This document shows positions 1,489-23,077 of a stretch of 64,000 nt of DNA, one piece after another. Position numbers and translations under genes: made by a program. This DNA comes from Rhodocyclales bacterium (GTDB taxonomy: Bacteria; Pseudomonadota; Gammaproteobacteria; Burkholderiales; Rhodocyclaceae): positions 1 through 64,000 of the forward strand of contig JAPLQY010000086.1 in the NCBI GenBank assembly GCA_026399475.1. Reading direction: 5' to 3'. How positions within the stretch are numbered: position 1 is the stretch's first letter; every line of letters begins with the position of its first letter. Below the pieces are notes generated by a model, which saw only the letters and a list, made by a program, of their open reading frames with translations, made no database searches and was not told the DNA's origin.

Positions 1489-1746
1489 TCAGTCTTTCAG
1501 CGAACTGATGAGCCCGATATAACGGGTCATGGCGTCGTCGCTTGTGGTGCCCTTGATTGCGGCCCACGCATCGTACTTGGCGCGGCCCACCATGTCGGTG
1601 AAGCCCGGGCGCTTGCCCTCGACATCGCCGTCCGTGCCCTGCTTGTAGAGTGCATAGAGTTGCAGCAGCACATCGTTCGACGGCCGTTCCGGAAGCTTCT
1701 TGGAATCGGCCACCGCTGCCTCGAATTGCTTCTTGAGTTTGCTCAT
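1489..1746 (-). CDS. Acyl-CoA-binding protein (ACBP)
   Basis: An 85-residue protein, the usual ACBP length. It binds long-chain acyl-CoA esters in the cytoplasm and buffers or delivers them to acyltransferases. The family pattern is clear: LLQLYALYKQGTDGDV around residues 27-42, then KYDAWAAIKG near 57-66. The frame extends upstream, but the ATG at 1746 has a purine-rich GAAAG ahead of it and gives the canonical N-terminus. It is transcribed divergently from the wax ester synthase/DGAT at 1865, and the roughly 120-bp gap probably holds both promoters. The pairing with an acyltransferase suggests a role in storage-lipid synthesis. Confidence 0.9.
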   Translation of the reverse strand: MSKLKKQFEAAVADSKKLPERPSNDVLLQLYALYKQGTDGDVEGKRPGFTDMVGRAKYDAWAAIKGTTSDDAMTRYIGLISSLKD

Positions 1747-1864
1747 GGTCATCTTTCGTCGCGTGGGATGTGGTTGCCAAGATTTGGCTTGGACTATTAT
1801 ATGTCTCTGCGGTAAGCGGGGACGATATCCCGGTGATATGCCGACAACTTTGAGGAACAACGCA

Positions 1865-3514
1865 ATGCTGCGACGCGAAAGAATGTCGGCCGTCGATACG
1901 GCCTGGCTGCGCATGGATCGGCCGACCAACCTGATGATGATTGTCGGCGTCATGGTATTCAATCAGCGAATCGACTTTGACCGGCTGCGTAACACGGTCG
2001 AAGCTCGGCTGGTCAGGCGCTACCGGCGTTTTCGCCAATGCGCGGTACAGGAGGTCGCCGGCGCCTTCTGGCAGGACGACCCCGATTTCGATATCGACGC
2101 ACACCTCAAGCGCCGCGTCCTGCCGGACAAAGCCGGCAAGAAGGAATTGCAGGCGCTGGCCAGCGAACTCGCCGTGCAACCGCTCAATCCAGGCAAGCCG
2201 CTGTGGCGCTTCGACCTGATCGAGGATTACGAAGGTGGTTCGGCGCTGGTCGTGCGCATCCATCACAGCATTGCGGATGGCATCGCGCTCGTCGGCGTCA
2301 TCCTCTCGCTGACCGATCTTTCGCCGCACGCTCCCGCGCAAAAGCAGGTCACGCCGGAACCGGAAGAAGCGGATGCAGACGAGGTTCCTGTCGGCCTGCT
2401 GGAAACCCTGGCCGAAACACTCGCTTCGGCACTGAGCATGAGCACCGAACTGGGCGGCAGGGCCTACGACCTGGCGTCGCATGGGGATCGCCTGTCCACC
2501 TACGGCCGGCACGGCATCGGCCTGCTCACCGAGCTCGCCAAACTGCTCGCGATGCCGCCTGATTCGGCCACCAGCCTCAAGGGCAAGACCAGCACGGTCA
2601 AGCGCGTGGCGTGGTCGGACCCAATCCCGCTGGGCGAAGTCAAAGCACTGGGCAAGGCATTAAGCTGCTCGGTCAACGACATCTTGCTGTCCGCCGTGGC
2701 CGGCGCACTGCGCGCCTATTTCCAGCAGAAGGGCGAAACTGTGCACCAGGTGGAAGTCCGCGCCATGATTCCCGTCAATCTGCGCTCGGCCAAGGACGAA
2801 GGCACGCTGGGCAACCGCTTCGGTCTGGGCACGCTGTCCTTGCCAATCCATGAAGGCAATCCTTTCGCACGCCTGTTCCTGGTGCGACAACGCATGAACG
2901 AACTCAAGGGTTCGTATCAGCCGCCGCTGACGCTCGGCATCCTTGCCGCTGTCGGCGTCGCCCCGAAAATCATCCAGCAGCAGTTTCTCGACATTCTTGC
3001 CGCCAAGGCCAGCACCGTGATGACCAACGTACCCGGGCCGAAGCAGCCACTGTATCTGGCGGGGTCACGCCTCGATCAGTGCATGTTCTGGGTTCCCCAA
3101 TCGGGCGACATCGGCATCGGCGTTTCGATTCTGAGTTACAACGACAACGTTCAGTTCAGCCTCATCACCGACCGCCATTTCGTTCCGGATCCGGAAACCA
3201 TCGCGCCACTTTTTGCCGCCGAATTCGACAAGATGATGCTGGCACTCCTGATGCTCGACTGGGAACAGCCGTTTGACCTGGCGCAGGTCGAACAGCAGTT
3301 GTTCGGCAAACAGATGCCACCGCCGCTCGAAGCGGAAAGCACCACGAGCCCGCAGCCGGTGGCCAGGGCTGCGCGCGCCGCGGCAAAATCCCGCAGGCCT
3401 GACGCTAGGCCTGCAACGGCTGTCGCTCCCAAGCGCAGAACGGCTGGAAAAACAGAAACACCCGTGGCCGTTCCGGCAGCGCGAGTACCGAAGCGTTTCC
3501 GTAATCCTGCCTAG
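1865..3514 (+). CDS. Wax ester synthase/diacylglycerol acyltransferase (WS/DGAT)
   Basis: A 549-residue acyltransferase joining acyl-CoA to a fatty alcohol (wax ester) or to diacylglycerol (triacylglycerol), typically at the membrane or lipid-droplet surface. The catalytic motif HHSIADG lies at residues 133-139, and the N-terminus (MSAVDTAWLRMDRPTNLM) and the NVPGP segment are typical of the family. The ATG at 1865 is chosen over in-frame starts upstream because GAGGA sits 8 bases ahead of it. The last 60 or so residues are a basic Ala/Arg/Pro/Lys-rich tail not needed for the fold. Family members are usually about 450-500 residues, so the tail is extra. Substrate preference cannot be read from sequence. 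Confidence 0.93.
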   Translation: MLRRERMSAVDTAWLRMDRPTNLMMIVGVMVFNQRIDFDRLRNTVEARLVRRYRRFRQCAVQEVAGAFWQDDPDFDIDAHLKRRVLPDKAGKKELQALASELAVQPLNPGKPLWRFDLIEDYEGGSALVVRIHHSIADGIALVGVILSLTDLSPHAPAQKQVTPEPEEADADEVPVGLLETLAETLASALSMSTELGGRAYDLASHGDRLSTYGRHGIGLLTELAKLLAMPPDSATSLKGKTSTVKRVAWSDPIPLGEVKALGKALSCSVNDILLSAVAGALRAYFQQKGETVHQVEVRAMIPVNLRSAKDEGTLGNRFGLGTLSLPIHEGNPFARLFLVRQRMNELKGSYQPPLTLGILAAVGVAPKIIQQQFLDILAAKASTVMTNVPGPKQPLYLAGSRLDQCMFWVPQSGDIGIGVSILSYNDNVQFSLITDRHFVPDPETIAPLFAAEFDKMMLALLMLDWEQPFDLAQVEQQLFGKQMPPPLEAESTTSPQPVARAARAAAKSRRPDARPATAVAPKRRTAGKTETPVAVPAARVPKRFRNPA

Positions 3515-3528
3515 CAGGGCGTAGTCCC

Positions 3529-4311
3529 CTAGTCCTCGAGTTCCGACCTGGCCAGTTCCACGTCGAGGCATTCCATGGCCTCGACCGGTGTTGCGGTCGC
3601 AGCTTTCTCGTAGAGCTTGACCGCCTGATCCATCTTGCTCTGACCGAACAGCATGACCAGCGCATTGGCGTATTCGATGCGGGCGATGGCTGAATCCGGT
3701 GCGATTTTCAGGGCCGACTCGAAGTGCTTCACCGCCAGATCCTTGCTCGCGCCGTAGGTCAGCTTGCCAATCAACGCGCCGACCTTGTCTACGACTTCGG
3801 CATGGTAGGCACCCAGAGCAGTATGGGCCTCGGCATGCTTCGGTTCGAGCTTCAGGGCGGCATCCAGCCCTGCCTTGATCCTGCCGCCCAGCCCCTGTGT
3901 CAGGGCGTGGAGCACCGAGATGCCTTGGCTGTAGCGGCCTAGCGCATATGCCTGGAAGTACCAGGCGTTGGCGTTCTTCGGTTGCGCCTGCTGCAATTCC
4001 TCGCAGCGCGCGGAAATGGCCTGAAACAACTCCAGCTTTCGCTGGTCGCCGTCTTCGAGGTAGGTGGCATAAATCATGGCCGCCTTGTTGGCGGCGTTGT
4101 AGCCGTCAATGCCGGCCGCCAGTCCGGCTTCGCAGGCCTTCTGGAACTCGCCCTGGTGATAGAGGCGCCATGCCTCCTGAACGGCGGCATCCGCGGGAAA
4201 GGGTTCGCAATCGCCGCAATGCAGGCGCTCCCAGTTCTTCTTCAGTGCGGCACCCGCGTAAACGAATGCCTTGTCCGCATGCGGAAACTTTTTCCAGGCC
4301 GGATTTGCCAT
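3529..4311 (-). CDS. TPR-repeat protein
   Basis: 260 residues with TPR-like helical pairs, for example AEAHTALGAYHAEV and AIARIEYANALVMLF. There is no signal peptide or membrane segment, so it is probably cytoplasmic. The gene converges on WS/DGAT with 14 bases between them and lies just downstream of the TetR gene on the same strand. It probably acts as a protein-binding scaffold in the lipid locus, but no partner can be named. Confidence 0.7.
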   Translation of the reverse strand: MANPAWKKFPHADKAFVYAGAALKKNWERLHCGDCEPFPADAAVQEAWRLYHQGEFQKACEAGLAAGIDGYNAANKAAMIYATYLEDGDQRKLELFQAISARCEELQQAQPKNANAWYFQAYALGRYSQGISVLHALTQGLGGRIKAGLDAALKLEPKHAEAHTALGAYHAEVVDKVGALIGKLTYGASKDLAVKHFESALKIAPDSAIARIEYANALVMLFGQSKMDQAVKLYEKAATATPVEAMECLDVELARSELED

Positions 4312-4330
4312 GATGGATATCTTCTTGCTC

Positions 4331-4978
4331 TCAAGCAGTTAAGTAATTTTTTGATACTTCCTCGAACAGCGTGCGCGAACGCCCCACCAGGTAGGGTGCG
4401 GCAAGTGCCATGACCTGGAACGCGCCACGGGACAAGCTCTCTCCGTCAATCTTTTTCCGTGGATCGCTGACAAACTCGAACGACAGCCAGTAAGTTGCGA
4501 CCACGGTCATGTTGACTGCCAGCGCCTGTATCTCGGCGGGTGTCGCCTTCATGTCTCCGGTCGCCACCAGCCCCTTGCAGATCAGGTTCGCGGTATGGAT
4601 CTTGTGCGCCACGATGCGCTTGAAATGCGTTTCGAGTATCCGGTTGCGCGACAACAACTCGTTGATGTCGCGATAGAGGAAGCGAAACTTCCAGATGTTT
4701 TCGAACAGCAGATGCAGAAACAGCCAGATATCCTCGACGTTTGGCGGGCGCCGTACGGGAGCCGCCAGGGTCTCGCCTATGCCGCGTTCGAAGTCGGCAA
4801 ACAGGGACTCGATGATCTCGTCCTTGTTGTGGAAGTGGTAGTAAAGATTGCCCGGACTGATCCCCATCTCGTCGGAGATCAACTGCGTGGTTACGTTTGG
4901 TTCGCCGAAGTCATTGAACAGCACCAGGGCGGTTTCCAGGATGCGCTCTCGCGTGCGGCGCTTCGGTTTTCGATCCAT
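4331..4978 (-). CDS. TetR-family transcriptional regulator
   Basis: 215 residues. The N-terminal helix-turn-helix is clear (RERILETALVLFNDFG, then ISPGNLYYHFHNKDEI at about residues 41-56), followed by a divergent ligand-binding half. A TTG one codon upstream is possible, but the ATG at 4978 is preferred. It sits between the TPR gene and a patatin gene, all on the minus strand, so it is a candidate controller of the lipid genes, sensing perhaps an acyl-CoA. The ligand is unknown. Confidence 0.88.
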   Translation of the reverse strand: MDRKPKRRTRERILETALVLFNDFGEPNVTTQLISDEMGISPGNLYYHFHNKDEIIESLFADFERGIGETLAAPVRRPPNVEDIWLFLHLLFENIWKFRFLYRDINELLSRNRILETHFKRIVAHKIHTANLICKGLVATGDMKATPAEIQALAVNMTVVATYWLSFEFVSDPRKKIDGESLSRGAFQVMALAAPYLVGRSRTLFEEVSKNYLTA

Positions 4979-5048
4979 CAATCACCACTTTCGATTCGGT
5001 GCGCCGAGGATAGCAGAAACGCGCAACCCCTCCGTCATCGATACGGTA

Positions 5049-6284
5049 TCAAGTCGCCTGGCGCGGCTGCAGGCGCTTGATGGCCTGAGCGAGGTCGTCC
5101 AGGGTGTCGGACAAGCGCAATGCCGTCAGCCCCATCGAGCCGGCTCGCCGACGTGTCAGCTGACCCATCCGGCGCGCCAGGGACCGATGCGGATCAGTCA
5201 GTGCGGCGCGGTTGATCGTTACGCCGTGTCGAGCCAGCTTTGGCGCCAGCTCATCGTACCGTCGCAGCAACTCTTGGCGCGTCTTGCGGTAGGCCTGCTC
5301 CGAGAGCCGCTTGCGATCCGCATAGCTGAATATGTTGGTGAAAAACATGTCGGCATCGTCGCGACTGGGCTCGAACAGGATGACGTCGGCGTCCTTGTAT
5401 TCGATGTCGTACTTGGCCAGACTGGTCTTCATGCGCGAATGGATGATGGCGCGGAAGGTCTGCGCCAGAACCACCGGCAAGCCGCCGTCGACCAGCTTGC
5501 GCTGCTTGAGGTGCCTTTCATGCGATGCATGTCTGGCGTCGAAGGGCACCAGCGGGTTGATGCAAAGCACCAGCCGCGCTCCGGCCTTGAGAGCAACGGA
5601 AGCATGGAGTGTCTTCTTCAGTGCGCCATCAACGTACCAGCGACCGTCGATTTCAACCGGTGGGTACAAGCCCGGCAGCGCCGCACTGGCCTGGATCGCG
5701 GTGGCGATCGGTACATGGTCGAAGCCCTTGGCGCCGAAAGCGACCGAAGTCCCCGAATCGAGATCCGTCGCAATCAGGAACAGCGGCTTCCTTATTTGGC
5801 GGAAATCATTGCTCAGGCCAGGCAGCGAAAACAGCCGGGTCAGGAAATCATCGATTCCGGCATTATTGAACACCCCGGTCGGAATTGCCCGCGACAGCCG
5901 CTGGAACGAAGCCAGGAAATCCCGGTGCAAGGGGCTGCGCAAATATTCGCGCAGGGATTCGAGCAGCAGGGCCGGAACCGTCGCGGCGCGCTGCGCGTAT
6001 TCTCCAATGGCCGGTTTCAGCAGCATCTCGGGCTCGAAGGGGACCTCGGCCGAGTCGCTGTCGATGAACATCCGGTAAAGATAGGCCGGACTCAGGCCGT
6101 TGGCCAAGCCCGCCGCGATGAAGCTGCCGGCACTGACACCGACGTAGGCATCGAGATCGTTGAAATCAAAGCCATCCAAAGCCTCAGACAGCGCCATCAA
6201 CGTCCCGATTTCATAGATCGCGCCGAGCGGCCCGCCTCCCGCCAATGCCAAAGCCCTCTGCGGCCGCCGCTCTATCGGTTTCAT
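5049..6284 (-). CDS. Patatin-like phospholipase
   Basis: A serine lipid acyl hydrolase of 411 residues. The oxyanion-hole motif GGGPLGAIYEIG is followed by the nucleophile elbow GVSAG (Ser at about residue 51), and the dyad Asp appears in VDGALKKT. No signal peptide is visible, so it probably acts in the cytoplasm, fitting a role in mobilising neutral lipid or phospholipid. The ATG at 6284 is preferred to a GTG five codons upstream. The start lies about 50 bases downstream of the phasin stop on the same strand. Confidence 0.88.
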   Translation of the reverse strand: MKPIERRPQRALALAGGGPLGAIYEIGTLMALSEALDGFDFNDLDAYVGVSAGSFIAAGLANGLSPAYLYRMFIDSDSAEVPFEPEMLLKPAIGEYAQRAATVPALLLESLREYLRSPLHRDFLASFQRLSRAIPTGVFNNAGIDDFLTRLFSLPGLSNDFRQIRKPLFLIATDLDSGTSVAFGAKGFDHVPIATAIQASAALPGLYPPVEIDGRWYVDGALKKTLHASVALKAGARLVLCINPLVPFDARHASHERHLKQRKLVDGGLPVVLAQTFRAIIHSRMKTSLAKYDIEYKDADVILFEPSRDDADMFFTNIFSYADRKRLSEQAYRKTRQELLRRYDELAPKLARHGVTINRAALTDPHRSLARRMGQLTRRRAGSMGLTALRLSDTLDDLAQAIKRLQPRQAT

Positions 6285-6334
6285 GTCAGGCCAATCCACC
6301 GACCGCCATCAGGCCTTGTCAAAGCGTTCTTGCG

Positions 6335-6823
6335 TCAGGCCACTACCTTGGGAGCCGCCTTGGGAGCCGCCTTGGCCTTAGGAGCCGCGCGTCGTACCGG
6401 CTTGGCCGCTGCGCTCTTCGGCTTGGCCGCCTTGGGCGCGCCACCGTTGAGTTTGTCCACTGCCGCCTTCAGTTCCGCAACGCGCTTGCTGAGTATTGCG
6501 ACGTCATCCTTGGTCGGTACGCCGAGACTATGCAAAGAACGAGCGACACGTTTCTCGAATACCTGCTCAAGCTTGTCCCATGTTCCAGTGGCCTTGGCAG
6601 CCATTTCGGTAACCTTGTCCTCAGCCACCTTGCGGGTCTTTTGCTGGATCGACTCACCCTGACGGACCAATGCATCAAATACCTTGTTGCCTTCCCGCTG
6701 CGCCTTGGCGAAGGCACCAAGCCCGGCCAGCCATATCTGCTGGGCCGATTCGCGAATGGTGGCGGAAAGCTGGCTGTCTGCGCCGATGGCTTTGAGTTTC
6801 TTTACCACGATTTTCTTTACCAT
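6335..6823 (-). CDS. Phasin-family granule-associated protein
   Basis: 162 residues. The first 110 match the PhaI/PhaF type of polyhydroxyalkanoate granule protein (IWLAGLGAFAKAQREG, then a long amphipathic helix). The last 40 are an Ala/Lys/Pro tail (KAAKPKSAAAKPVRRAAPKA). In Pseudomonas PhaF a similar histone-like tail binds DNA and helps share out granules at division; that role here is inference. GGAG stands 7 bases before the ATG. It is downstream of the acyl-ACP-reductase-like gene and far from phaC, so it may coat wax or TAG bodies as well as PHB. Confidence 0.85.
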   Translation of the reverse strand: MVKKIVVKKLKAIGADSQLSATIRESAQQIWLAGLGAFAKAQREGNKVFDALVRQGESIQQKTRKVAEDKVTEMAAKATGTWDKLEQVFEKRVARSLHSLGVPTKDDVAILSKRVAELKAAVDKLNGGAPKAAKPKSAAAKPVRRAAPKAKAAPKAAPKVVA

Positions 6824-7103
6824 AACAATCTCCTGATGAACGTAATCCCGGTTGCCTCGAAGCCGAGGCCTCGGCAGACGCTCGGCCTGCCATGAGGCCC
6901 AGTTTATCGACTCGGATTAGAGAGGTCACACTAATGTCTTAGGGGAAACCCTCTAGCGTCCCGCCCTCTGTCGCATTCGGTCCGGGATACCACAGGCAGG
7001 ACCCGGCGGTCACACTGTATTTTCCAGCCGCGACAAATCTGCCGAGCGCCTGAATGCGCTCTACGACTCGACATACAAGTTTCATCGCAGCCGGGATTAA
7101 CTT

Positions 7104-9356
7104 CTATGCCGCTGTCTTCTTCTTCACAATCGTCTTGCCTGCCGCCTTCCTTGGCGGCGCCGGTTTTGAAGCAGGCTTCTTCAGCGCAATCGCGATCTTG
7201 GCGGGGGCCTTCTTTGCCACAGCCTTCTTTGCCACAGCCTTCTTTGCCACAGCCTTCTTTGCCACAGCCTTCTTTGCCACGGCCTTCTTCACCGCAGCCT
7301 TTGCAGACCTGGTACTGCTCGAACCATTCCAGGTCAGACGCGCCTTTCTTGCGAGGGCCACTACCTTGGCAATGTCTTCGTCGGTGTACACGCCCTTGAC
7401 ACCCGATATGGCCGACAGTTTCATGCCGTGCTTGATGCCGAGCTTGTAGATCTCCTTGACCTTTTCCCACTCGGTATCGCGGCCGATGGTGAATACCTCG
7501 AATCGGCCTTCCAGCGCCAGCACGATGGTTTCCGCCAGGCAGGCGTATATGACGTTCTTTGGCAGGCCAATGGACTTCAGGCCCTTGACCTGGGTTGGCA
7601 GCTCGATTTCACCCGATTCGATCACCAGCACATCCGGACGCTTGGCGACCTCCTCGGCAGGCAGATCCAGCGGCCGCGCGACATCGGTAATGACGCAACC
7701 GGGCTTGACTTTGGTGATGTCCAGAATCTTCTTGCCCGCCCCCGAGGTTGACGTGACGATCATGTCCATGTCACCCAGCAGGCTGTCGTAATCAGTCGAT
7801 GAGGTAACCTTGGCGTCCGGCGTGTCCAGCAAAATCGAGTCCCTCAGTTCATTGAGTTTCTTGATGTCGCGGCCGGCGATTACGACTTCGTCGAAGGCCA
7901 TGGCCAGCAGACGCGCGCTGACAGATCCGATGGAGCCCGTGGCGCCAATTACCATGGTCTTGGCCGGCACTTTCTTGCTACCCTTTTTCGCCGATATCAG
8001 CCCCATGCGCCGCATGGCGTCGGCCGCCGCCCACAGCGCGCCCGATGCGGAGTAGCTGTTGCCGGTGGTGATCGGAATGCTGGCACGTCGCGCTACGGTA
8101 ATGCCTGCGTCGCCGACGACCTTGGTGAAGGCGCCCAGACCCATCAACTGGGCTCCCATTGCTTCCGCAATCTTTGCGGCATGCAGCAAACGCCGGTACG
8201 TAAATTCGGGACTGTGCGAGAGCATTTCCTTGGGGGTGCCACCCACTGAAATCAGCCAGCCTTCGGCTTCGGCGCCGGTGGGCGAGATGATGTTGCTCAT
8301 CTTGCAATAGACCATCGGCGGCAGGTAGGCGGCGAGTGTCTCCACCCCGTCCATGATGAACTTGGGCGTGGCCTTTGGAAACGGATAGCCCTTCTTGATG
8401 TACTCCTGGCTTAGCGGATGTACGACAAAGGCAAAGCGACGGATGTTGCGGAAATGCCCGGTGGGGTGGAGCAAGCGCGGCTTGATGTCCAGTTCGTTGA
8501 TTATTTCCTCGAAATCGTGGTCGGAGAGTTCCGCTTCCGGCTTTCCGGTTGCTGCAAGGATCATGGCAGTGATGGTGCTGATGCCCACCACCTTGTCAAA
8601 GAGTTTTGGCGAAACATCCACCACCAGATTGACCTTGTGCTTCGTGAAAAATGCCAGTCCTTCGTCATCGATGGCCGACGTGATGAGGGTCTTGCCCTCC
8701 AGATTGCCACCGGCGGAAACCGCCTGGATTTCCCGGAAGGTGCCGACAATCACGTGGGACTTGGCCACGGCATTGGCGACGATCTTGTTCTTCACGGTCC
8801 TCAACACGGATTTCAGGAATTCTCCGGGCACGATGTCGGGAAGAAGCTCCTTGCCCTTGGCGTAGAGTTCAAGCTGGTCCAGCGAACCCAACAGGAGAGG
8901 GGACCCCGCCTGGAATACCGGATCGGCAAAGCTCAGGTTCTTCGTGTAATCGGACAGGGCCACCGCCATGTCGTAGTTACGCATTCCGGACAGGAAAAGG
9001 ACCAGGTTGTTGTTGAAATAATGGCCCAGTTCCTTCTGTACATAGCGTATGGCACGCACTTGCAGCAGTCGGCGCAAGCTGGCGCCCGTGGTGACCGGTA
9101 CTCGCGTGACGACCTGCATCAGGCGCTGCGACTCCTTGTTGACCACCGTGCGCAATCCGACGTGATAGTGGTCGACCGTATCGCTCAAGGCAATGGCATC
9201 CGCATTGGCTTGCTGGCGTCGCATCAACTCCCATGCCTTGCTGCTGTCCCGGTCGGCGCCCAAGCGTCGGACTGAAAACTCCTGGCCCAGAACCCTTGTC
9301 TTAAATTCAAAATCCTTCTTGGACGATCCCAATGTCACGGTAACTACTTTTTTCAT
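7104..9356 (-). CDS. Long-chain acyl-ACP reductase-like dehydrogenase with Lys/Ala tail
   Basis: A 750-residue protein in three parts. Residues 1-310 are an N-terminal region not recognised. Residues about 320-670 resemble cyanobacterial fatty acyl-ACP reductase: a GGTPKEML segment, ITTGNSYSASGA, the nucleotide-binding motif GATGSIG at 471-477, and YACLAET with Cys606 at the place of the acyl-thioester Cys of that enzyme. Residues 683-750 are a basic tail with tandem KKAVA units. The expected reaction is NADPH-dependent reduction of acyl-ACP or acyl-CoA to fatty aldehyde. The start at 9356 has AGGGTGG close upstream and is preferred to the ATG at 9371. Neighbouring alcohol dehydrogenase and WS/DGAT genes support a wax pathway. 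Activity is inferred. Confidence 0.72.
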   Translation of the reverse strand: MKKVVTVTLGSSKKDFEFKTRVLGQEFSVRRLGADRDSSKAWELMRRQQANADAIALSDTVDHYHVGLRTVVNKESQRLMQVVTRVPVTTGASLRRLLQVRAIRYVQKELGHYFNNNLVLFLSGMRNYDMAVALSDYTKNLSFADPVFQAGSPLLLGSLDQLELYAKGKELLPDIVPGEFLKSVLRTVKNKIVANAVAKSHVIVGTFREIQAVSAGGNLEGKTLITSAIDDEGLAFFTKHKVNLVVDVSPKLFDKVVGISTITAMILAATGKPEAELSDHDFEEIINELDIKPRLLHPTGHFRNIRRFAFVVHPLSQEYIKKGYPFPKATPKFIMDGVETLAAYLPPMVYCKMSNIISPTGAEAEGWLISVGGTPKEMLSHSPEFTYRRLLHAAKIAEAMGAQLMGLGAFTKVVGDAGITVARRASIPITTGNSYSASGALWAAADAMRRMGLISAKKGSKKVPAKTMVIGATGSIGSVSARLLAMAFDEVVIAGRDIKKLNELRDSILLDTPDAKVTSSTDYDSLLGDMDMIVTSTSGAGKKILDITKVKPGCVITDVARPLDLPAEEVAKRPDVLVIESGEIELPTQVKGLKSIGLPKNVIYACLAETIVLALEGRFEVFTIGRDTEWEKVKEIYKLGIKHGMKLSAISGVKGVYTDEDIAKVVALARKARLTWNGSSSTRSAKAAVKKAVAKKAVAKKAVAKKAVAKKAVAKKAPAKIAIALKKPASKPAPPRKAAGKTIVKKKTAA
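7216..7290 (-). repeat. 15-bp tandem repeat, 5 units, in the reductase tail
   Basis: Five units of GCCACAGCCTTCTTT (plus strand). The first four are identical and the last has two changes. Each unit encodes KKAVA on the minus strand. Near-identity points to recent slippage, so copy number may vary between strains. Confidence 0.9.
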
Positions 9357-9450
9357 AACATCCACCCTCATCTGTTTGATTGAACATCAACCCGGGTTTG
9401 CATCGGGATGACGAGCACTAGCGTTCATGCAGCAGCAGCGAATCGCCTCT

Positions 9451-9545
9451 GATGATGAAACACGCGAAAGGCGAATTGAAGGCCCGCCCCTCCCATCCTC
9501 CCCTCGCGGGGAGGCTTCTGATTTGTTCGCTTCGCTCGTCTATCA
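9451..9545. repeat. Intergenic repeat, copy A (pair with 24901)
   Basis: A stretch shared, with changes, with 24901-24990. Common blocks are GATGAAAC, CGCGAAA and GCCCGCCCC, then a C-rich/G-rich hairpin (CCTCCCC / GGGGAGG) and CTGAT. It lies between the reductase start and the stop of the iron alcohol dehydrogenase, so it may act as a terminator or be a REP-like element. Confidence 0.5.
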
Positions 9546-9573
9546 CCAATCGCACCGAACGAGCTGTTTCACG

Positions 9574-10848
9574 TTAAGCAATCTTCTTTGCGCGCCGGGC
9601 CGGCTTTTTTGCCGAAGCGGCGGGAGGCAACACCTGGCGAATGATGTCTTCGCAAACGGCTTGCGTCATGTAGCGTGGCACCGGATAGCCGGTGTGGGCT
9701 TCATGGCATGCGGCTTCGGCCAGTTGAGGAATATCGGACTCCTTCAGTGCCGCAAGGAAGGTCGGTATCCCGAGGTCGAGATTGAGTTGATCCACCGCAT
9801 CGAGAAACTTCTGCGCCAACGCATCTTCCCCTTCATTTTCCCGGCCGAGCTTGGCGCGCACCGCCAGCAAGGCCAGCCGGTCGGTGATGGCCGGGAGCGA
9901 ATACTTCAGAACCAGCGGCAGCATGATGGCATTGGCAAGGCCATGGGGGGTGTGGTATTTGCCGCCGAACTGATGTGCAATGGCATGCACATAGCCTACA
10001 TTGGCGCGGGTAAAGGCAAATCCTGCGTAGGTGGCCGCCAGGGACATTTTCTCTCGTGCTTCGAGGTTTTTTCCGTCGCTGTAGGCCACTCGCAGGTTTT
10101 CGAATATCAGTCCGACCGCTGACAAGGCCATGTCGTCCGTGTATGGATTGGCCCAGTGCCCGACGAAGGCTTCAATGGCGTGCGTCAGTGCGTCAATGCC
10201 TGTCGCTGCGGTGATATGGGGAGGCAGCCCGGTCATCAGGCAAGGATCGAGCGCAGCCATTTTTGGTACCAGGCGCGTATCAACGATCACCAGCTTGGTA
10301 TGGCTTTCCGGATCCGAGATGACGGCGGCAACAGTCACCTCCGAGCCGGTACCCGCGGTGGTAGGAACGGCGTAGATCTTGACGGGTGTTTGCAGGCCCT
10401 TGAAATATCCGGCCAGCTCGCGCAGCGTCTTGCCGGGATTGGAGACTGCCGCGGCAATGGCTTTGGAAGCATCCATCGAGGAGCCTCCCCCGAATGCCAC
10501 GATGGCGTCGCAGCCGTGTGCGCAGTAAAACTCGATCCCTTCCTCAATCAGGGGGATCGGTGCGTCAGGCGTGATGGCATCGAATATCACGTACTCGGCC
10601 CCCCCCGCAGTCAGGGCCTTGGTCAGGTCGTCGAGCAAGCCGAGCTTGGAGATGATGCTGTCGGTGACAATAAGGATCTTGCCGTGGCCGAACCCGGCAA
10701 TGGTTTGTCCCAGCCTGCCGCTGGAGCCTGGCCCTACGAGGATCGTAGGCTGCGGTATGGGCAGGAAGCGCACGGCCAGTCCAGCGCCGCGCATGGCTGC
10801 ACTCAGTGCCTTGGTGCGAAGTGACTCGCTCAGCAATTCAGATATCAA
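9574..10848 (-). CDS. Iron-containing (group III) alcohol dehydrogenase
   Basis: 424 residues. Nucleotide-binding GGGSSMD and TTAGTGSE motifs, then the metal-binding region GIDALTHAIEAF and HAIAHQFGGKYHTPHGLANA, which supplies His ligands. It would interconvert an alcohol and its aldehyde with NAD(P)H. Beside an acyl reductase and WS/DGAT, reduction of fatty aldehyde to fatty alcohol is the likely job. It starts at TTG, decided by AAAGGAG 7 bases upstream. The end has a short basic tail (AASAKKPARRAKKIA) like those of its neighbours. Substrate is inferred from context only. Confidence 0.87.
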   Translation of the reverse strand: MISELLSESLRTKALSAAMRGAGLAVRFLPIPQPTILVGPGSSGRLGQTIAGFGHGKILIVTDSIISKLGLLDDLTKALTAGGAEYVIFDAITPDAPIPLIEEGIEFYCAHGCDAIVAFGGGSSMDASKAIAAAVSNPGKTLRELAGYFKGLQTPVKIYAVPTTAGTGSEVTVAAVISDPESHTKLVIVDTRLVPKMAALDPCLMTGLPPHITAATGIDALTHAIEAFVGHWANPYTDDMALSAVGLIFENLRVAYSDGKNLEAREKMSLAATYAGFAFTRANVGYVHAIAHQFGGKYHTPHGLANAIMLPLVLKYSLPAITDRLALLAVRAKLGRENEGEDALAQKFLDAVDQLNLDLGIPTFLAALKESDIPQLAEAACHEAHTGYPVPRYMTQAVCEDIIRQVLPPAASAKKPARRAKKIA

Positions 10849-19009: not shown

Positions 19010-19561
19010 TTACTTCTTCTCGCTCTTTTCCTCGGGCTTGACGTAGATGCCAGGGAATATCTTGCGCGTCTGCTCCTGCATGGTGTCCTGCATCTGCTGA
19101 AACATCTTCTGACTCTGCTCAACGTAGGTGCCCATCATGTGCTGCATGGCCGGCCCCTGAAACTTGAGGAACTGCGCCCACAGATCCTGACTGTCGCCTG
19201 TGTTTTCACCATACAGCGTCTTGGCCTGTTCCTTGAGCTTGGCCTGCACCTCGGTGAAGGACTTGATGTTGTCCCCGATATAGCTGCCCATCATGCCCTG
19301 CATGGCATTGCCATAGAAGCGGATCATCTGCGACAGAAGTTCCGAAGAGAACATCGGCGCACCGCCGGCCTCTTCTTCAAGGATCACCTGCAACAGGATG
19401 GCCCGCGTGAGATCGTCACCGGATTTCGCGTCGACGACCTGAAAGGCCTCGTGTGCCAAGACCAGTTGCTTGACATCGGCCAGCGTGATGTAGGTGCTGG
19501 TGCGCGTGTCATAAAGGCGGCGATTCGGATATTTCTTGATGAGACGGCTCTGTGCGGCCAT
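19010..19561 (-). CDS. phaR: PHA synthesis repressor PhaR
   Basis: 183 residues. The N-terminal PHB/PHA accumulation regulator domain is unmistakable ([20 protein letters not shown], residues about 5-24), followed by a helical granule-binding region rich in Met/Gln. PhaR represses phasin and PHA genes and is titrated away by PHB granules. The ATG at 19561 has GGAGGGG 6 bases upstream, so it is preferred to the in-frame start at 19576. Last of the pha genes before rimO. A likely target site overlaps the phaC promoter at 23102-23130. Confidence 0.95.
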
Positions 19562-19650
19562 TGTGTTCCCCTCCATAAAACCATTCTACTACCAGGGTGG
19601 CAGTCCTGGGATACCGGCCCCGCCCAGAGGGACCGGGACATAATACCAAG

Positions 19651-20391
19651 TCAACAATAGTGCAGCCCGCCATTGATATTCAAGGTGGCACCCGTCATGT
19701 AGCCGGCGAGATCCGATGCCAGATAGGCGCACAGCGCTCCGATTTCTTCGGGCTTGCCCAGACGCCCCACCGGAATGGTCGCCACGATCGAGTCACGCAC
19801 TTCCTGCTTGATCGCCATGACCATGTCCGTGCCGATATAGCCGGGGGCGATGGCATTGACCGTGACGCCTTTCCTGGCCACTTCGGCGGCGATGGCCCGG
19901 GTGAAGCCGAGGATGCCGGCCTTGGCCGCTGAATAGTTGGCCTGGCCGAACTGCCCCTTGATTCCGTTCACCGAGGACATGTTGATGACGCGGCCCCAGC
20001 CCCTGTCGGCCATACCTGCCAGCACATGATGGGTGACATTGAAGACGGAGTCGAGGTTGGTCGACAGCACGGCGTCCCACTGACCCTTGTCCATTTTCTT
20101 GAACACCGCATCGCGAGTGATGCCGGCGTTGTTCACCAGTACGTCAATCGGACCGACTTCGGCTTCCAGCTTCCTGACCATTGCCGCACAGGCGTCGTAA
20201 TCGGTGACATCCGCCTCGGCGACGATGAAATCAAAACCCTCCGATTTCATCCTGGCCAGCCATTCGTCCTTCGGCGGGAAATCCGGCAGACAATTTGCCG
20301 CAACCGTGAAACCGCTCTGAAACAGCGCCTTGCAGATCGCTGTGCCCAAACCGCCCATCGCGCCCGTTACCAATGCAATTCGTTTTGCCAT
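19651..20391 (-). CDS. phaB: Acetoacetyl-CoA reductase, second copy
   Basis: A 246-residue short-chain dehydrogenase: TGAMGGLG cofactor motif, NNAG, catalytic Ser in INMSSVNG and YSAAKAG with the catalytic Tyr-Lys. The SSVNGxKGQFGQxNYSAAKAG block is diagnostic of acetoacetyl-CoA reductases, which make (R)-3-hydroxybutyryl-CoA with NADPH for the PHA synthase. It is clearly diverged from the copy at 20513, so an old duplication with possible specialisation, not a recent repeat. Confidence 0.9.
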   Translation of the reverse strand: MAKRIALVTGAMGGLGTAICKALFQSGFTVAANCLPDFPPKDEWLARMKSEGFDFIVAEADVTDYDACAAMVRKLEAEVGPIDVLVNNAGITRDAVFKKMDKGQWDAVLSTNLDSVFNVTHHVLAGMADRGWGRVINMSSVNGIKGQFGQANYSAAKAGILGFTRAIAAEVARKGVTVNAIAPGYIGTDMVMAIKQEVRDSIVATIPVGRLGKPEEIGALCAYLASDLAGYMTGATLNINGGLHYC

Positions 20392-20512
20392 TTCTGCTAC
20401 TTCCCATAACGACCAAAAAACCTTATGTCTCCGTGCGCTTGCGCCGGGGACGGTATCCACCCGGCGCGGGCGAAGGGCGCTCTGCAAGCTGCAGCCTTCC
20501 GCCCGAGATGGA

Positions 20513-21253
20513 TCAATACATGTGCTGACCGCCGTTGATTGAAATGTTGGCACCGGTAACGAAAGCGGCTTCTTCGGAAGACAGGTAGGCCACCAGGCCG
20601 GCGACTTCTTCCGGCTTGCCCAGACGCGACTGCGGAATCTGCGGCAGGATCTTGCTGTCCAGCACTTCCTGCGGAATAGCCATGACCATCTTGGTGCCGA
20701 TGTAGCCCGGAGAAATGGTGTTCACCGTAACGCCCTTCTTGGCCACTTCGAGCGCCAGCGCCTTGGTGAAACCGTGCATGCCGGCCTTGGCGGCGGCATA
20801 GTTGGTCTGACCGAAGGCACCCTTCTGGCCATTCACCGAGGAAATGTTGATGACCCGGCCCCAGCCGCGCTCCATCATGCCGTCCATCACCTGCTTGGTC
20901 ATGTTGAAGGTGGAATCGAGATTGGTGTGGATCACCGCATCCCAATCGGCCTTGGTCATTTTCTTGAAGGTCATGTCGCGCGTGATGCCTGCGTTATTCA
21001 CCAGGACTTCCACCGGGCCGACGTCCTGGGCCACCTGTGCGACACAGGCCTTGCAGGAATCAAAATCACTCACGTCGCAGGGATAGGCCTTGAATCCGTA
21101 GCCCATGTCATTCATGGTCCGCAGCCATTCATGCGCCTTGGTGTTGGTGGGGCTGTAGGTCGTTACGACCTTGTAGCCAAGCGCCGCCAACTTGATACAG
21201 ATTGCTTCACCGAGACCGCCCATTCCACCCGTTACCAGTGCCACTCGCAGCAT
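20513..21253 (-). CDS. phaB: Acetoacetyl-CoA reductase PhaB
   Basis: 246 residues, same family as its downstream neighbour: TGGMGGLG, NNAGITRD, INISSVNGQKGAFGQTNYAA and YAAAKAG. It reduces acetoacetyl-CoA to (R)-3-hydroxybutyryl-CoA. It follows phaC by about 90 bases on the same strand. No beta-ketothiolase gene (phaA) is in this window, so acetoacetyl-CoA must come from a thiolase elsewhere. Confidence 0.94.
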   Translation of the reverse strand: MLRVALVTGGMGGLGEAICIKLAALGYKVVTTYSPTNTKAHEWLRTMNDMGYGFKAYPCDVSDFDSCKACVAQVAQDVGPVEVLVNNAGITRDMTFKKMTKADWDAVIHTNLDSTFNMTKQVMDGMMERGWGRVINISSVNGQKGAFGQTNYAAAKAGMHGFTKALALEVAKKGVTVNTISPGYIGTKMVMAIPQEVLDSKILPQIPQSRLGKPEEVAGLVAYLSSEEAAFVTGANISINGGQHMY

Positions 21254-21340
21254 TTTGCTTCTCCTATCGTTTTTGTTGGGTCGGGGCTATTGGATTTCCA
21301 TGCCGGAAGCAGCGCCCCTCGCAGACATCCGGCTTGCTCA

Positions 21341-23077
21341 TTATGCCTTTTCCTTGACGTAGCGTCCGGGAGCAGGCTCGCCGGGCGGGTAGGCCTTGCT
21401 GCCCAGGCGTCCGCGCGCCGGAACATCCTTGCCGCCGTAGCCCTTGAGCCACTTCGCCCACACCGGCCACCAACTGCCCGGAGCTTCTGTCGCGGTCTCA
21501 AACCATTCATCGGCATTGGCAGTCTTGTTGTCGTTCAACCAGTAGTTGCGCTTGTTCTTCACCGCCGGATTGATGACACCGGCAATGTGCCCCGAAGCAC
21601 CCAGGACAAAGGTGGTCTCGCCACCGAGCAGGCTGCGCGTCTGGTACGAGGTTTTCCACGGCACGATGTGATCTTCGCGACTGGCGTAGAGGAAGGCGGG
21701 CATGTCCACGCGGCCGAGATCGGCCTTGACGCCGCACATTTCCAGCTTGCCCGGAACCCGCAGATTGTTTTCGAGATACATGTTGCGCAGATACCAGGCG
21801 AGGAATGGTCCGGGAAGATTGGTTGCATCGGCATTCCAGAACAGCAGGTCGAACGCCGGCGGTTTGTTGCCCTTCAGGTAGTTGCCGACCACGTATTGCC
21901 AGATCAGGTCGTTGGCGCGCAGTGCAGAAAACACCGTCGCCAGTTCGCTGCCGCGCAGCAGGCCGCCCTTGCCGATGCCGGTCTCGCGCGCCTGTACCGC
22001 AGTTTCGTCGATGAAGTAACCGATCTCGCCGGTTTCCGAAAAATCCAGCAGGGTGGTCAACAGGGTGAGCGACGCGACCGGGTTTTCGCCGCGAATGCGC
22101 GCCACGGAGAGCGCGGCACCGAGTATCGTGCCGCCCACGCAGAAACCCAGGGCGTTGATCTGCTTGACCTTGCAGATGTCCTGCACCGCCTTGATCGCGG
22201 TCAGCGCACCCTTCTCGATGTAGTCATCCCAGGTCAGATGCCCGAGGTCGGCCTGTACGTTGCGCCAGGAAACGAGGAACACCGTGTTGCCCTGTTCCAC
22301 GGCATACCGCACCAGTGAATTTTCCGGTTGCAGATCGAGAATGTAATACTTGTTGATGCACGGCGGAACCATCAGGAAAGGCCGCTCCGCCACATTGTCG
22401 GTCAGCGGCGAATACTGGATGAGTTGCATCAATTCGTTTTCGAACACCACCGCCCCGGGCGTGATCGCCAGATTGCGACCGACCTCGAAAGCGCTGTCGT
22501 CGGTCATGGAGATGCGGCCCTTGTCCAAGTCGCTGAGCAGGTTCTGGATGCCCTTCTGTATACTTTCGCCCTTGGTCTCGAGCGCCTTCTGGACGAACTC
22601 GGGATTGGTGGCGAGGAAGTTCGACGGCGCCATCGCATCGACCATCTGCCGCGTCAGGAAACGCATGCGGTCCTTGGTCTGCCCGTCGGGCACCGGCGCC
22701 GCTTCGGCCATGCGCTTCATGTACTCGGCATTGATCAGATAAGACTGGCGCAGATAGTCATAGACCGGACTCTCACCCCAGGCCGGATGGTCGAAGCGCT
22801 TGTCACCCGGCGCCGGACTCGCCACTTGCGGACGGGGCTGATCGCCAGCCTTGCCCAGCATCCCTTGCCAGAGTTCGGCGTGCCGCCCCATCCATTCCTG
22901 TTGCAGGGTCTTGAGTGCCTCCGACTCGGCACTCCACACCGCCGGATTCACCGCGCCGGGCGCGGCGGACGCCTTCTGTTGCTGTTCGGCAAGAAATCGG
23001 TTAAAGCCTTGGGCCATGGCGTTTCCCGCCTGAAACATGGCTTGCAATGCGGCATTCTGGTCGGGAGGGAAAGACAT
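21341..23077 (-). CDS. phaC: Class I poly(3-hydroxyalkanoate) synthase PhaC
   Basis: 578 residues, the usual class I length. It polymerises (R)-3-hydroxyacyl-CoA at the granule surface. The lipase-like box GFCVGG holds the nucleophile Cys313; the catalytic Asp is in YASREDHIVPW and the His in GASGHIAGV. PhaC N-terminal domain features (WDDYIEKG, PPCINKYYILDL) are present. The family and the short-chain reductases next to it point to a PHB product. First gene of the operon, with the promoter 25 bases ahead of the start. Confidence 0.97.
   Translation of the reverse strand: MSFPPDQNAALQAMFQAGNAMAQGFNRFLAEQQQKASAAPGAVNPAVWSAESEALKTLQQEWMGRHAELWQGMLGKAGDQPRPQVASPAPGDKRFDHPAWGESPVYDYLRQSYLINAEYMKRMAEAAPVPDGQTKDRMRFLTRQMVDAMAPSNFLATNPEFVQKALETKGESIQKGIQNLLSDLDKGRISMTDDSAFEVGRNLAITPGAVVFENELMQLIQYSPLTDNVAERPFLMVPPCINKYYILDLQPENSLVRYAVEQGNTVFLVSWRNVQADLGHLTWDDYIEKGALTAIKAVQDICKVKQINALGFCVGGTILGAALSVARIRGENPVASLTLLTTLLDFSETGEIGYFIDETAVQARETGIGKGGLLRGSELATVFSALRANDLIWQYVVGNYLKGNKPPAFDLLFWNADATNLPGPFLAWYLRNMYLENNLRVPGKLEMCGVKADLGRVDMPAFLYASREDHIVPWKTSYQTRSLLGGETTFVLGASGHIAGVINPAVKNKRNYWLNDNKTANADEWFETATEAPGSWWPVWAKWLKGYGGKDVPARGRLGSKAYPPGEPAPGRYVKEKA

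Follow-up and report, generated by a model that had tools for sequence, protein, structure and literature searches.

Polycationic C-terminal tails on neighbouring lipid-ester enzymes and a phasin in a Sulfuritalea-type betaproteobacterium: candidate tethers to a polyanion

Why should four neighbouring bacterial proteins, three biosynthetic enzymes and a phasin, all end in basic tails? The question is raised by a 64,000-nucleotide stretch of DNA (the window) from a Rhodocyclales bacterium (assembly GCA_026399475.1, contig JAPLQY010000086.1, our contig C40 of a 4.2 Mb genome with an estimated contamination of 9%), whose host we take as a Sulfuritalea-type betaproteobacterium. In it a WS/DGAT-type wax ester synthase, a phasin, a reductase resembling acyl-acyl carrier protein (acyl-ACP) reductases (AAR-like) and an iron-containing alcohol dehydrogenase (Fe-ADH) carry tails of Lys, Arg, Ala and Pro past their family cores, at the following positions (aa, amino acids).

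1865..3514, + strand: WS/DGAT-type wax ester synthase / acyltransferase gene, 549 aa (TIGR02946, 2.4e-113; PF03007, PF06974)
3317..3511, + strand: WS/DGAT basic tail, residues 485-549 (65 aa; K+R 14, D+E 4); the TIGR02946 match stops at 457; basic in 24/24 closed genus orthologues
3488..3502, + strand: codons for the conserved near-terminal PKRFR motif of the WS/DGAT tail; 22/24 genus orthologues end in PK.[FVA][RQ] plus 0-5 residues
6335..6823, − strand: phasin gene, 162 aa (PF05597, 7.8e-39; TIGR01837 above cut-off)
6338..6445, − strand: phasin basic tail, residues 127-162 (36 aa; K+R 10, D+E 0); PF05597 stops at 126; tail in 15/15 genus phasins found
7104..9371, − strand: acyl-ACP-reductase-like gene, 755 aa (N-terminal 340 aa, then an AAR/PigE-like reductase domain); TIGR04058 2.8e-18 and NF053554 5.7e-53, both below cut-off; PDB 6jzq 9.9e-14, 4ppm 1.2e-27
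7107..7325, − strand: reductase basic tail, residues 683-755 (73 aa; K+R 24, D+E 0); 17/17 in the genus, 71/74 in 80 loci
7207..7301, − strand: 15-bp tandem repeat, 6.3 copies, coding for AVAKK units within the reductase tail (Tandem Repeats Finder, 93% matches)
9574..10848, − strand: iron-containing alcohol dehydrogenase gene, 424 aa (PF25137, 1.7e-52; PF00465, 6.3e-47)
9577..9627, − strand: short basic tail of the Fe-ADH, residues 408-424 (17 aa; K+R 6, D+E 0); the Pfam match stops at 405; 17/17 in the genus, 69/69 Fe-ADHs of at least 60% identity in 80 loci

A first-pass annotation of this DNA had proposed that the four tails run beyond the normal family ends, over about 60 (WS/DGAT), 40 (phasin), 68 (reductase) and 15 (Fe-ADH) residues. 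The ends of the family matches bear this out for all four proteins, and the lengths were about right (65, 36, 73 and 17 aa). The same annotation had spoken of one common tail, and here it went too far: the tails are alike in composition only, and their sequences, lengths and endings all differ. The numbers of 3-, 4- and 5-mers shared among them (16, 4 and 0) are lower than the means for their own shuffles (31.1, 7.6 and 1.5), which argues that they are not copies of one tail; this, together with the absence of the PKRFR ending from the other three, rules out a common tail module. The DNA pattern for PKRFR has six matches in the genome, as against six for a reversed control, and only the WS/DGAT match lies at most 3 residues from the end of its open reading frame (ORF), one other being 10 residues away.

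The tails are conserved in the genus. We searched for the reductase in 121 genomes, 31 of them from the same genus as the window, and found it in 17, all within the genus (17/31). All 17 orthologues are tailed (48-103 aa, net charge +14 to +33). These 17 genomes are also the ones that yielded the Fe-ADH, which is likewise tailed in each (19-48 aa past residue 405, net +5 to +10), and the phasin, found beside the reductase in 15 of the 17 fetched stretches, is tailed in all 15 (26-42 aa, net +7 to +10). WS/DGAT genes were found in 30 of the 31 genus genomes; all 24 closed orthologues in the fetched loci have a basic tail (net +7 to +19, counted after dropping the first 22 conserved residues beyond the core), and in 22 of them a hypervariable stretch is followed by a conserved PKRFR-like terminal motif. 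For none of the four proteins, then, was the tail absent from the genus orthologues whose ends we compared. An assembly artefact is ruled out, because 16 further genomes, including one assembled as a single 3.8 Mb contig, have the same tails.

They also extend beyond the genus. A profile scan of genome contigs across Proteobacteria gave 84 confirmed loci, the best 80 of which were kept; these are mostly from Burkholderiales and Rhodocyclales, with a few from Gammaproteobacteria. To call a tail, we took the length and net charge of whatever follows a fixed core end, with thresholds set after viewing the data. On this basis, the stretch after the core reaches 30 aa or more with a net charge of +8 or more in 71 of 74 closed reductases (median 69 aa, +17), and 14 aa or more with a net charge of +3 or more in all 69 Fe-ADHs of 60% identity or higher (median 29 aa, +7); three Fe-ADHs below 60% identity have no tail. 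The tail-less reductases are those of L176, L182 (Endozoicomonas) and L183 (Salinisphaera), in whose stretches (only 5.9 kb for L176) no match to an ADH or WS/DGAT was found. Among closed WS/DGATs 22 of 26 are tailed (exceptions L149, L156, L187 and L162), and in Burkholderiales a different type of WS/DGAT, also tailed, often lies 3' of the ADH and reductase on the same strand. Two Comamonas loci encode a further tailed protein just upstream of the Fe-ADH (L158:7903-8640 and L160:7882-8622), which in the L158 copy is a helix-turn-helix protein according to Pfam.

How common such ends are elsewhere was gauged with a fixed criterion, scored over 18 to 40 terminal residues (K+R minus D+E as a fraction, a low number of hydrophobics, and small residues) and chosen after the window tails had been seen. 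It flags the WS/DGAT, phasin and reductase of the window, and the short Fe-ADH tail narrowly fails; none of the acyl-CoA-binding protein (ACBP), TPR, TetR, patatin, GMC, lipase and aldehyde dehydrogenase (ALDH) genes in the same stretch was flagged. In the genus it flags 13/24 WS/DGATs, 14/17 ADHs, 17/17 reductases and 15/15 phasins, and in the 80 loci 65/70 reductases, 55/67 ADHs, 15/15 phasins, 4/13 type A and 10/12 type B WS/DGATs. By the same measure 3 of 133 genes are flagged in 140 kb of the window's genome, and in 800 kb of a single-contig genus-mate (G002) 7 of 677 background genes are, whereas its own copy of the locus has 4 flagged among the 7 genes called there. The other genes of the 80 loci give 10/791 (TetR 0/16, TPR 0/12, ALDH 0/15, GMC 0/11, lipase 0/13, patatin 1/14). 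An earlier, looser count gave 8 of 396 genes at the shortest setting, four of the eight lying within two copies of the locus. These background counts are approximate because our gene caller is crude (in the 800 kb count a wrong-strand ORF displaced a second WS/DGAT, L077:17206-18738, that the criterion had flagged in another count). They rule out chance or a tail-rich genome as the source of the pattern, and the tails are rare rather than equally common in unrelated proteins. The seven flagged background genes of the genus-mate encode a WS/DGAT, an SLT-LysM protein, a sigma-70 factor, a COX2 protein, PurT, an acyl-CoA-synthetase-like protein and one unnamed product. An SLT-LysM transglycosylase with a basic tail stands beside or near WS/DGAT paralogues in two genomes (L091:302-1666, L077:2253-3617), and a regulator with a short Arg/Lys tail adjoins a WS/DGAT paralogue in four genus genomes (L094, L096, L097 and L099; TetR_C_24 by Pfam in L094).

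We examined single-base changes in tail codons between nearest-neighbour pairs of genus orthologues (56 pairs, which share branches). K↔R and K↔E changes both require one transition, yet we counted 39 of the former and 5 of the latter, which suggests selection to keep charge. Synonymous sites vary freely (AAA↔AAG, 108), which places the constraint on the protein; changes at Ala codons were A↔V 46, A↔T 54, A↔E 9 and A↔D 1. These counts point to selection that keeps the positive charge of the tails while their sequence and length drift.

What might such charge be kept for? Known bacterial storage granules owe their position on the nucleoid to a special adaptor, such as PhaM, PhaF, PhaH, AlgP or MLDS. 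According to the accessible parts of the published descriptions, PhaF, a Pseudomonas putida phasin, has a disordered Lys-rich C-terminal part with which it binds DNA non-specifically and positions granules at the nucleoid (PMC3574117); in PhaF and in PhaM of Ralstonia eutropha, histone-like C-terminal parts bind the DNA (PMC13052382); and in Rhodococcus jostii RHA1 the protein MLDS uses a Lys-rich C-terminal tail, which contains PAKKA motifs, to attach neutral-lipid droplets to DNA, a K-to-E change abolishing DNA binding (PMC5504291). The window phasin appears to follow the plan of PhaF and PhaM, a PF05597 domain and then a Lys-rich basic tail, although a short one. With MLDS, as far as its description goes, the window shares the type of tail, Lys-rich and C-terminal. 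The likeness to histone-like DNA-binding tails that the first-pass annotation had seen in PhaF is thus upheld, and extends to MLDS. The reductase tail itself approaches the histone H1-like HC2 family (PF07382) at 30.0 bits on the protein (7.1e-7; gathering cut-off 40); a six-frame search reaches 41.5 bits, but with a match that crosses a stop codon. Elsewhere in the window's genome lies a stand-alone histone H1-like, KPAA-rich protein (L069:1465-2061, G000:C93; HC2 51.2 bits). The difference from these systems is in the proteins that carry the tails: in PhaF and PhaM the tether is a dedicated granule protein and in MLDS, as described, a single structural protein rather than enzymes, whereas here three biosynthetic enzymes are tailed as well, and family searches of the WS/DGAT, reductase and Fe-ADH gave no phasin match.

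The families and gene neighbourhood suggest that the four proteins form a neutral-lipid (wax ester) set. The WS/DGAT belongs to TIGR02946 (379.5 bits, cut-off 309.95), the phasin scores above the cut-offs of both its families (PF05597, 133.1 vs 28.8 bits; TIGR01837, 98 vs 94.7) and the Fe-ADH, found as one copy in the window's genome at the cut-off used, above those of its domains (PF00465, 159.7 bits; PF25137, 178.4 bits). By its profile score the reductase is a relative of the TIGR04058 long-chain acyl-ACP reductases and not a member (66.3 bits, equivalog cut-off 449.7). Its second half matches PDB 4ppm, and its residues 349-655 match the acyl-ACP reductase structures 6jzq and 6jzu, which likens it to cyanobacterial AAR; it differs from that enzyme in its basic tail and in an extra N-terminal 340 residues (window 8352-9371, − strand), for which a Pfam search gave no match even at E 0.1. 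That N-terminal part is strongly conserved in an alignment of 35 relatives. The combination of an AAR match, an Fe-ADH and a WS/DGAT suggests a route in which the reductase would convert acyl thioester to fatty aldehyde, the Fe-ADH would convert the aldehyde to fatty alcohol and the WS/DGAT would esterify the alcohol to wax ester, while the phasin would coat the lipid inclusion.

Because the tails resemble the Lys-rich disordered DNA-binding ends of MLDS, PhaF and PhaM, we favour, at a little under even confidence, the reading that they are disordered electrostatic tethers holding the wax-ester enzymes and the phasin on a polyanion, most likely nucleoid DNA. The putatively disordered polycationic tails would bind it without sequence specificity, so that the synthesising enzymes and the growing inclusion would be held on the nucleoid; such attachment might both concentrate the pathway and spread inclusions to daughter cells.

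Several observations weigh against this reading, above all in a strict, coordinated form. Nine of the 24 tailed genus WS/DGATs come from genomes that gave no match to the reductase or the ADH. Conversely, betaproteobacterial WS/DGATs without a tail stand beside tailed reductases in L149, L156 and L187, as do divergent tail-less Fe-ADHs in L170 and L181, and the charge of the reductase tail is uncorrelated with that of the ADH tail (Spearman 0.05, n=64). The Fe-ADH tail is short, even at the lengths reached in the genus; the WS/DGAT tail is rich in Arg and Pro with some acids, unlike the PhaF repeat; and a literature search gave no paper in which Sulfuritalea and wax ester are both named. The uncoupled tails and the lack of co-variation leave a single coordinated pathway tether unproven, and each enzyme may use its own tail independently.

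The window's genome has five WS/DGAT genes, all five tailed. A search of the class, from which 30 of 33 matches were fetched, contributed 26 WS/DGATs from other genomes, and 6 of these were flagged as tailed. On a tree of 70 WS/DGAT cores, 42 of them tailed, the five genes fall in five separate places and the tail label needs eight changes, seven of them forced by starred branches. On this evidence tails have been gained or lost repeatedly within the family; the tree is a quick LG+G4 one with long branches that leaves gain and loss indistinguishable, and two of the eight changes come from rows just under the threshold (L099 and L102).

Of the alternatives, the one that survives best is that the tails bind the anionic phospholipid surface of an inclusion or membrane and recruit soluble enzymes to their substrate interface, with no role for DNA. 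In its favour, every tailed enzyme acts on lipids, polycations bind anionic head groups, and the same window encodes a polyhydroxyalkanoate (PHA) synthase, PhaC, and a PhaR that both lack tails of this kind, so that here the tails follow lipid-ester and not PHA enzymes. The PHA set (PhaR, two genes resembling short-chain dehydrogenases/reductases (SDRs) and PhaC, at 19010-23038) has no basic tails, and of three PhaC ends the two that can be read are not tailed, the third running off its contig. However, two of four readable PHA-type Phasin_2 proteins also end in short flagged basic stretches, the published look-alike tails, as far as their accessible descriptions go, bind DNA, and few hydrophobic or aromatic residues are available for insertion (bulky ones number 2/65 in the WS/DGAT tail, 0/36 in the phasin, 4/73 in the reductase and 1/17 in the Fe-ADH). 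We regard this explanation as unlikely.

It is more improbable that the tails have a generic role, keeping abundant, aggregation-prone proteins soluble or binding RNA or ribosomes without organising a pathway. The similar ends of the unrelated SLT-LysM, sigma-70, COX2, PurT and acyl-CoA-synthetase-like proteins would fit such a role, but the tails are strongly concentrated on one functional set and recur on separate WS/DGAT clades. Binding to polyphosphate, which would couple lipid storage to polyphosphate granules, we consider quite improbable. Relatives within the Rhodocyclales include polyphosphate accumulators. In the accessible part of its description, AlgP of Pseudomonas aeruginosa has a disordered KPAA-rich tail, of the domain type found in PhaF, sits on polyphosphate granules and is required for their even spacing (PMC9239181); AlgP is, however, not an enzyme and belongs to another type of granule than the one proposed here, and the annotated neighbourhood holds no pointer to polyphosphate, no search having been aimed at polyphosphate genes. 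Neutral or nearly neutral drift, in which repeat slippage past the domain end is tolerated but unused, has the tandem repeat and the varying length of the reductase tail in its favour and is very improbable, being largely contradicted by the pattern of substitutions, by the retention of the tail in nearly all reductases and by the recurring PKRFR-like ending.

In the wider locus the order is ACBP (−), WS/DGAT (+), TPR protein (−), TetR (−), patatin (−), phasin (−), AAR-like reductase (−) and Fe-ADH (−), followed by a GMC oxidoreductase, a lipase-like hydrolase and an aldehyde dehydrogenase.

1489..1752, − strand: acyl-CoA-binding protein gene, adjoining the WS/DGAT gene, without a tail (PF00887, 9.9e-29)

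Betaproteobacterial WS/DGAT clusters, in the part of their description available, likewise have a WS/DGAT gene adjoining one for an acyl-CoA-binding protein, with a phasin on the same scaffold (PMC10351704). The reductase named there is a fatty acyl-CoA reductase of the SDR type (MAQU_2507-like) rather than an AAR-like enzyme with an Fe-ADH, and that part of the text does not mention tails. Nor did we find a mention of tail motifs in the accessible part of PMC3556143, or, judging by titles and the openings of abstracts, a description of basic tails on WS/DGAT, AAR-like reductase or Fe-ADH in open-licence papers, a negative that carries little weight. Granule proteins are already known to bear histone-like tails; what looks new is the presence of such tails on the pathway enzymes themselves.

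Taken to its full extent, the tether reading would have polycationic tails, acquired independently by each enzyme, anchor a whole lipid-ester pathway to the nucleoid or to some other polyanion, so that inclusions are born and kept on DNA, a proposal that we consider possible but distinctly doubtful. A basic tail after a WS/DGAT, an AAR-like reductase or an Fe-ADH may serve annotation as a mark of inclusion-associated enzymes and, if the reading is true, short tails of this kind would be portable as a tag to co-localise enzymes in wax or oil production. If the enzymes do carry the tether, the start site and the inheritance of a lipid inclusion would be written into the pathway that makes it.

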